The notes under the pieces are model-generated. The model searched no databases. It saw only the letters and a program-made list of their open reading frames with translations, and was not told where the DNA came from. This document shows positions 6,386 to 6,506 of a stretch of 41,522 bases of DNA, in pieces. Position numbers and translations under genes: made by a program. Source of the DNA: Solirubrobacterales bacterium (GTDB lineage Bacteria > Actinomycetota > Thermoleophilia > Solirubrobacterales > Solirubrobacteraceae). How positions within the stretch are numbered: the first letter of the stretch is position 1; the number at the start of each line of letters is the position of its first letter. The DNA lies in assembly GCA_013815355.1 (NCBI GenBank), contig JACDGG010000006.1, forward strand, positions 1-41,522, read 5' to 3'.

Positions 6386-6459
6386 GTCGTCGCGACTGGC
6401 GCTCGGGTGGAGTCAACCACCGGGAAGCGATGACATCGGCACCGCCGCGCGCCTGGGCA
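6386..6459 (+). ncRNA. ZTP (pfl) riboswitch aptamer in the serC leader
   Basis: All hallmarks of the ZTP/pfl aptamer are visible. P1 is formed by 6386-6393 with 6427-6434 (8 bp, one G-U). P2 is GGTGG (6406-6410) with CCACC (6417-6421), flanked by the conserved ACTGGCG before it and CCACCGGGAAGCGA after it. The 3' subdomain carries GCGCCTGGGCA (6449-6459). The pseudoknot can form between GGCG (6398-6401) and CGCC (6450-6453). ZTP accumulates when 10-formyl-tetrahydrofolate is short, and these RNAs normally turn on one-carbon and purine genes. Here the downstream genes make serine, the usual one-carbon donor, so the placement is coherent. It has not been tested against a covariance model. Confidence 0.85.
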
Positions 6460-6482
6460 CCCGCAGATCATCGATCATTCCC

Positions 6483-6506
6483 CCTCGAGGCCCGACCGGC
6501 GAGGAG
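6483..6506 (+). promoter_or_regulatory. serC Shine-Dalgarno and sequestering hairpin (expression platform)
   Basis: GAGGAG (6501-6506) is the serC ribosome-binding site, 5 nt before the ATG. CCTCG (6483-6487) can pair with CGAGG (6500-6504), which would hide it. No U-run follows any hairpin in the leader, so translational control by the riboswitch is more likely than termination. The pairing is only 5 bp and its coupling to ligand binding is an inference. Confidence 0.5.

Follow-up and report, generated by a model that had tools for sequence, protein, structure and literature searches.

Serine is a one-carbon donor, and T-box RNAs are known to sense uncharged tRNA. The pfl/ZTP class of riboswitches was described to target one-carbon genes, namely purH, fhs, pfl, glyA and folD (PMC2864571), and in 2022 ZTP and glycine riboswitches were reported to stand in tandem upstream of the Bacillus and Oceanobacillus gene with which the serine pathway begins (PMC9481103). 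These are five cases from Firmicutes, in which an OFF switch for glycine accompanies the ZTP aptamer ahead of the gene of the 3-phosphoglycerate step, and ZTP was predicted to open the serine pathway and so to provide one-carbon units; serine supply under ZTP control is already in print (PMC9481103). Other leader RNAs of serC or serC-serA are the serC RNA motif, an orphan candidate treated as an RNA separate from the ZTP class (PMC7266159), and glycine riboswitches (PMC9481103), and serine synthesis in Paenibacillus was reported to be under T-box control (PMC8002221). With regard to mechanism, the ZTP riboswitch of F. ulcerans (PMC7484762) and the pfl riboswitch of C. beijerinckii (PMC10085676) were found to be transcriptional. 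In the literature searched, no report of ZTP control of serC or of ZTP control in the lineage considered here was found, with the reservation that the target list of Kim et al. (2015) may include serine genes.

In the present study the serC leader of a member of the Solirubrobacterales was analyzed within a window of 41,522 bases, by which the whole stretch of DNA under analysis is meant. An earlier note on this DNA had proposed a ZTP riboswitch at 6386–6506 that controls serC-serA, with P1 and P2 stems, two conserved strings, pseudoknot partners and a hairpin over the Shine-Dalgarno sequence. The features of the locus are as follows.

6373–6378, + strand: −10 promoter element TAAACT (TANNNT box pattern of serC leaders)
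6382–6465, + strand: ZMP/ZTP riboswitch aptamer, RF01750 positions 1–86 (cmscan; covariation in 64 serC aptamers)
6386–6393, + strand: 5' strand of P1, pairing with 6427–6434 in eight pairs, one of them G-U (base check)
6398–6401, + strand: 5' strand of the pseudoknot, GGCG, pairing with CGCC 6450–6453
6406–6421, + strand: P2 hairpin, 6406–6410 with 6417–6421, five pairs (base check, alignment)
6427–6434, + strand: 3' strand of P1 (base check)
6444–6458, + strand: P3 hairpin GCC/GGC, 6444–6446 with 6456–6458, three pairs, with CGCCUGGGC loop (cmscan, alignment, base check)
6454–6458, + strand: UGGGC, 3' side of P3 or alternative partner of GCCCA 6506–6510 (complementarity, folds)
6483–6504, + strand: local Shine-Dalgarno hairpin, CCUCG 6483–6487 with CGAGG 6500–6504 (base check, lowest-energy folds)
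6501–6506, + strand: Shine-Dalgarno sequence GAGGAG of serC (sequence)
6506–6510, + strand: GCCCA, spacer between Shine-Dalgarno and start, complementary to UGGGC (spacer complementarity counts)
6512–7666, + strand: serC, phosphoserine aminotransferase (TIGR01366, 605.5 bits against a cut-off of 401.65)
7663–9300, + strand: serA, D-3-phosphoglycerate dehydrogenase (TIGR01327, 603.9 bits against a cut-off of 454)

The earlier note had asked for the pfl model (RF01750) to be run, and Rfam cmscan returned a match to all 86 model positions at 6382–6465 on the + strand with 56.8 bits (gathering score 39) and an E-value of 9.5e-7, by which the stretch is confirmed as a full-length ZMP/ZTP (pfl) aptamer; ZMP/ZTP is the predicted ligand. 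The base-by-base check bore out the P1 and P2 stems and the pseudoknot partners GGCG and CGCC, and the two quoted strings were located as CCACCGGGAAGCGA at 6417–6430 and GCCTGGGCA at 6451–6459. P3, the pseudoknot and the conserved CGCCUGGGC loop of RF01750 are all present, and the leader position is that of the class, on the same strand and with 46 nt between the aptamer model and the serC start. Only the limits proposed for the riboswitch had to be redrawn: the aptamer begins at 6382–6386 and ends at about 6459, and 6460–6511 constitutes the expression platform. A chance match was ruled out by the RF01750 score together with the covariation of serC aptamers described below. RF01750 was also the single Rfam family above threshold across the window, and other riboswitch families on serC were rejected on these grounds.

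Compared with the RF01750 class, the locus shares P1, P2, P3, pseudoknot, conserved core, 5' leader position and one-carbon targets (PMC2864571), whereas the target is serC-serA and the platform is predicted to be translational, with the P3 strand reused and no terminator. The serC RNA motif and the glycine riboswitches are other RNA families than RF01750, and neither these nor a T-box scored above the Rfam threshold in the window, although all are likewise leader RNAs of serine genes (PMC7266159; PMC9481103; PMC8002221). A further likeness is to the tandem arrangement of Bacillus and Oceanobacillus, from which the present system differs in belonging to Actinomycetota (Solirubrobacterales), in its single aptamer, in having serC first in a serC-serA unit, and in comprising 69 loci. 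The earlier note had regarded serine genes as a departure from purine and folate targets; the target is indeed unusual for this known class, but it has a precedent (PMC9481103), and since Bacillus has already been described to place the opening step of the serine pathway under ZTP, the serC-serA riboswitch is an independent second case and no new principle.

The identities of serC and serA as the regulated genes agreed with the TIGRFAM matches listed above. The serA region additionally matched the Pfam families 2-Hacid_dh, PGDH_inter and ACT, and the serC stop overlaps the serA start in ATGA at 7663–7666. In all 65 serC leaders that have 30 nt or more of upstream sequence, a TANNNT box ends 2–5 nt 5' of the aptamer; each of seven 25-nt control windows placed farther 5' contains the box in 0 or 1 of 64 serC leaders. 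Among the glyA leaders, 45 of 48 have the box within 25 nt of the aptamer. With the −10 box placed just 5' of the aptamer, P1 is expected to be the first element of the RNA, and by the spacing rule the transcript would presumably start near 6384–6386, at the 5' base of P1. A generic sigma-70 scan yielded no two-hexamer promoter.

Between a small open reading frame 3' of ilvC and the serC promoter, the window holds a type II restriction-modification-like pair (3713–5410 and 5148–6329), which consists of an Eco57I-like methyltransferase (PADLOC MTase_II, 389.9 bits) and a neighbour that, scanned from 5400, matched REase_II weakly (29 bits). Neither protein had a tblastn match in 26 named ZTP-serC loci, several of which are short upstream, and the pair is probably a recent insertion.

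Covariation among the serC leaders of relatives, another check asked for in the earlier note, was examined in an alignment of 64 of the 69 serC aptamers of the class (one duplicate and four with long insertions were left out). Standard pairs occupied 97.6% of 1405 structure cells, a value that fell to 38.1–53.2% when the partner strand was slid, and 8 of 22 pairs showed changes on both sides. The P1 and P2 stems covary, as seen in helices 1 and 3 of the alignment: in helix 1 (P1 and two inner pairs) 94.7% of cells were paired and 6 of 10 pairs had changed on both sides; helix 3 was paired in 100% of cells, with two such pairs. P3 was likewise 100% paired, and the pseudoknot GGCG/CGCC was invariant (64/64); as pseudoknot, P3 and CGCCUGGGC loop are nearly invariant, there is no covariation support in these parts. 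The conserved core is retained in relatives: CGCCTGGGC and CTGGCG were each present in 69/69 serC aptamers and each in 46/48 glyA aptamers.

The genome of the window (3.2 Mb, 305 contigs) holds two aptamers, before serC and before glyA, the latter (L002:1501–1582; G000:C176:28969–29050, − strand) with 52.7 bits. In a scan of the class, aptamers were detected in 101 of 399 genomes (E ≤ 0.001), 100 of them over the cut-off, with 141 loci in total, two of which scored below the Rfam cut-off (G374:C178, 37.8; G006, 34.4). By tblastn with the proteins of the window's genome, 69 loci lie before serC and 48 before glyA; the other 24 were assigned by eye from the first long frame to serA (3), PurH-type AICAR transformylase (5), a 2Fe-2S flavoprotein (13) and unclear genes (3; G290:C114, G002, G006). 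A serC aptamer is found in 69 of the 101 aptamer genomes, 33 of which possess both the serC and the glyA aptamer. Within the window's family 67 of 73 aptamer genomes have the serC aptamer, and three more carry an aptamer directly before serA. Downstream of the serC aptamer, serA follows in 57 of the 65 loci with at least 1350 nt of sequence. The phylum scan gave a match in 44 of 396 genomes. Both scans used stricter filters, so that the proportion of carriers in the class is a minimum. Among 33 phylum loci outside the class none precedes serC and 18 precede glyA (tblastn), by which the idea that actinobacteria in general have the aptamer on serC was rejected; the remaining loci were assigned by eye to folD-like, purH-like and other genes. 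Outside the class, one match below the cut-off (G594, 36.8 bits) stands before a distant serA (34% identity).

Further targets were also observed. The aptamers directly before serA (L071, L077 and L130 of G389, G370 and G236; by eye) all come from one genus, g17, and the one PurH-type locus that was scanned (L003) matched PRK07106. In another family of the class, f9, the aptamer precedes a 2Fe-2S/flavin oxidoreductase resembling the small subunit of glutamate synthase (L081, L090, L091, L094, L097, L110, L113, L114, L116, L118, L131, L132 and L133; L113 scanned, the others by eye), an unusual ZTP target that is perhaps a formate dehydrogenase partner; the best match of L113, PRK12814, was below its cut-off. 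A third strong aptamer of G290 (L020, G290:C114:10418–10499; 61.7 bits) is followed by a frame of 78 aa without Pfam match. Two aptamer matches, L141 (G006; 34.4 bits, below the cut-off) before a tungstate/molybdate-type binding protein and L225 (G650; 57.4 bits) before a ModE-like regulator, both by eye, recall the moeA-linked tandem ZTP switch (PMC9481103).

Among the best 80 of 533 confirmed serC loci with named hosts, an aptamer in the same orientation lies immediately 5' of serC in 26 (64.4–88.5 bits), and the highest score among the remaining 54 was 21.5 bits. The closest SerC among the matches listed, from which the window's own record was possibly left out, belongs to Solirubrobacteraceae bacterium Chersky.17_7 (86% identity). 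One of the 26 carriers is titled only Actinomycetes (L191), and the others bear the names Solirubrobacterales, Solirubrobacteraceae, Thermoleophilaceae or those of the genera Patulibacter (P. americanus, L176), Solirubrobacter (L161), Conexibacter (L182) and Svornostia, which are taken by us to belong to these three groups. In all 26 serA lies downstream, and ilvC was found in 19, of which 17 have it 5' of serC and two (L161, L185) have it between the two serine genes. Among the 80 loci no aptamer was detected in any titled Pseudonocardia, Amycolatopsis, Mycolicibacter or Nocardia, nor in three titled Solirubrobacterales, Solirubrobacteraceae or Thermoleophilia (L148, L200 and L209, the last with only 122 nt upstream). 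An Rfam check of 11 of the 80 loci returned RF01750 in L154, L171 and L191 and not in L148, L149, L151, L153, L162, L174, L205 and L209.

Relatives devoid of the aptamer also occur within the family. In 22 family genomes that were rechecked no serC aptamer was present; 20 had no match at all, and G246 and G387 had a glyA match only. A close serC was found in 13 of the 22, with an ilvC-like carboxy end at most 170 nt upstream and in 10 of the 13 within about 50 nt (by eye), and full-model scoring upstream of these 13 serC genes gave nothing above 15.4 bits. G087 shares with the ZTP-bearing G178 an almost identical leader tail 3' of P3 but lacks aptamer and promoter. A SerC tree of 79 proteins, 66 with and 13 without aptamer (3 of the 69 ZTP-bearing proteins were left out as shorter than 300 aa or interrupted by a stop within the match), required seven label changes, at least five of which are forced by well-supported branches. 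The aptamer is most simply read as present early and then lost several times, a direction on which the SerC tree by itself is silent.

For the expression platform 100 of 117 serC and glyA leaders were used, 15 serC and 2 glyA leaders having been dropped for want of a clear start with Shine-Dalgarno sequence; the p-values that follow are too small, because background starts were picked mechanically and the leaders are related. The 5-bp hairpin said to cover the serC Shine-Dalgarno sequence does exist in the window, but a 5-bp Watson-Crick helix of this kind was found in only 3 of 14 leaders of the genus with a clear start (those of the window's genome, G290 and G346). More recurrent in the genus is the complementarity of UGGGC..CCUC to GAGG.GCCCA, that is, to Shine-Dalgarno and spacer, which would tie the masking of the Shine-Dalgarno sequence to loss of the aptamer fold. 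A spacer complement to UGGGC of at least 4 bp was present in 23 of 54 serC starts (Fisher 8e-14) and 15 of 46 glyA starts (Fisher 1e-8), compared with 10 of 293 background starts, and in 13 of the 14 serC leaders of the window's genus; a wider measure (at least 5 bp) gave a weaker signal (12/54 serC, 10/46 glyA, 29/293 background). Duplexes of UGGGC and its flank with Shine-Dalgarno and spacer were more stable than shuffled ones in the 14 genus leaders (−13.45 vs −7.68 kcal/mol, p 1.2e-4) and in 31 glyA leaders of other genera (−12.04 vs −9.35, p 7e-4), one of which (G121) forms 11 continuous pairs; no significant difference was seen for the 40 serC leaders of other genera (−8.81 vs −8.28, p 0.13). 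Duplexes with swapped partners were no worse than the original ones (p 0.92 within the genus), so that the platform is conserved but without covariation.

Unconstrained folds paired at least three bases of UGGGC with the spacer in 12/14 serC and 1/15 glyA leaders of the genus, and in 8/40 serC and 16/31 glyA leaders of other genera. In a pseudoknot-free model, for which 83 of the 117 leaders were usable, Shine-Dalgarno accessibility of 49 serC leaders lay below that of shuffles (p 0.0012); enforcing the aptamer barely raised it (0.17 to 0.23 in the window, mean 0.28 to 0.30), and spacer accessibility increased from 0.41 to 0.59 (null 0.42 to 0.55, p 0.035). In the window, the UGGGC/GCCCA helix appears, together with the Shine-Dalgarno hairpin, only in the lowest-energy folds of the shorter segments 6444–6520 (−21.9 kcal/mol) and 6450–6520 (−19.0 kcal/mol). 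The minimum-energy fold of the full leader keeps P3, lacks this helix and masks the Shine-Dalgarno sequence by the local hairpin, alone among the 14 genus leaders, and for this reason our confidence in the strand-swap mechanism is lowered; the stability of the window leader was not above that of shuffles (z 0.60).

A translational ON switch is the likeliest reading, supported most firmly in the window's genus and on glyA of other genera, the serC signal of other genera not being significant, and we consider it quite probable that the serC leader works in this manner, by exchange of the P3 strand on a serC-serA transcript with its own promoter. The riboswitch would form the 5' end of this transcript. 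Without ligand, the 3' strand of P3 (UGGGC) would pair with GCCCA, the spacer next to the start of serC, and neighbouring pyrimidines, in the window CCUCG 6483–6487, would cover the Shine-Dalgarno sequence; with its start masked, serC would be translated at a low rate, and serA likewise through presumed translational coupling. A shortage of 10-formyl-THF would let ZMP/ZTP rise and bind the aptamer, and the bound ligand would hold UGGGC in P3 and pseudoknot, by which the start site would be freed and serine made.

An intact, ligand-responsive aptamer might instead act on transcription, by termination or Rho, as do the well-studied ZTP riboswitches of F. ulcerans (PMC7484762) and C. beijerinckii (PMC10085676), and the full-leader fold of the window, with no swap of the P3 strand, would fit such a platform. 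However, no terminator-like site was found in 6250–6700, and an intrinsic terminator at the serC leader was rejected accordingly; the distance from aptamer model to start, 46 nt in the window and 21–25 nt in several relatives (starts assigned mechanically), leaves little room, and the P3 strand is complementary to the Shine-Dalgarno spacer. A transcriptional platform is therefore held to be unlikely.

New target genes sometimes accompany riboswitch variants whose ligand has changed, and a ZTP-like aptamer for, e.g., a serine- or glycine-related compound could be imagined before serC. Yet the presence of CGCCTGGGC and CTGGCG in every serC aptamer and nearly every glyA aptamer, the invariant pseudoknot and the end-to-end match to the Rfam model speak against this, and such a change of ligand seems very improbable. 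The leader of the window could further be a decaying copy of the switch without regulatory effect, given the aptamer-less relatives and the label changes on the SerC tree, a full-leader fold unlike that of the other 13 leaders, and CCCGC after the aptamer where many genus leaders have CCCTC. Against decay stand the intact core elements, the intact promoter box and the CCUCG further 3', which still reaches the same Shine-Dalgarno sequence, and we regard it as very unlikely.

The link between folate stress and serine production drawn in the earlier note is supported by the covariance match, the covariation and the recurrent position before serC, the part of the ligand in it being predicted. With another ZTP switch on glyA, a rise of the alarmone would increase the production of serine and, in addition, the use of serine as one-carbon donor. 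We lean slightly towards the view that Solirubrobacterales possess a two-switch ZTP regulon of serC-serA and glyA, covering the path from 3-phosphoglycerate to methylene-THF, which would have been fixed early in the family together with its own serC promoter, with the P3 strand handed between aptamer and start site, and which would have been deleted several times, with serC then directly following ilvC. The serC leaders are compact candidates for a translational ZTP switch: aptamer model and start codon lie 21–46 nt apart in those with an assigned start, the P3 strand is shared, and aptamer-less relatives permit comparison. With them, a known alarmone riboswitch of folate and purine enzymes is seen to reach the provision of the one-carbon donor itself across a little-studied soil lineage.
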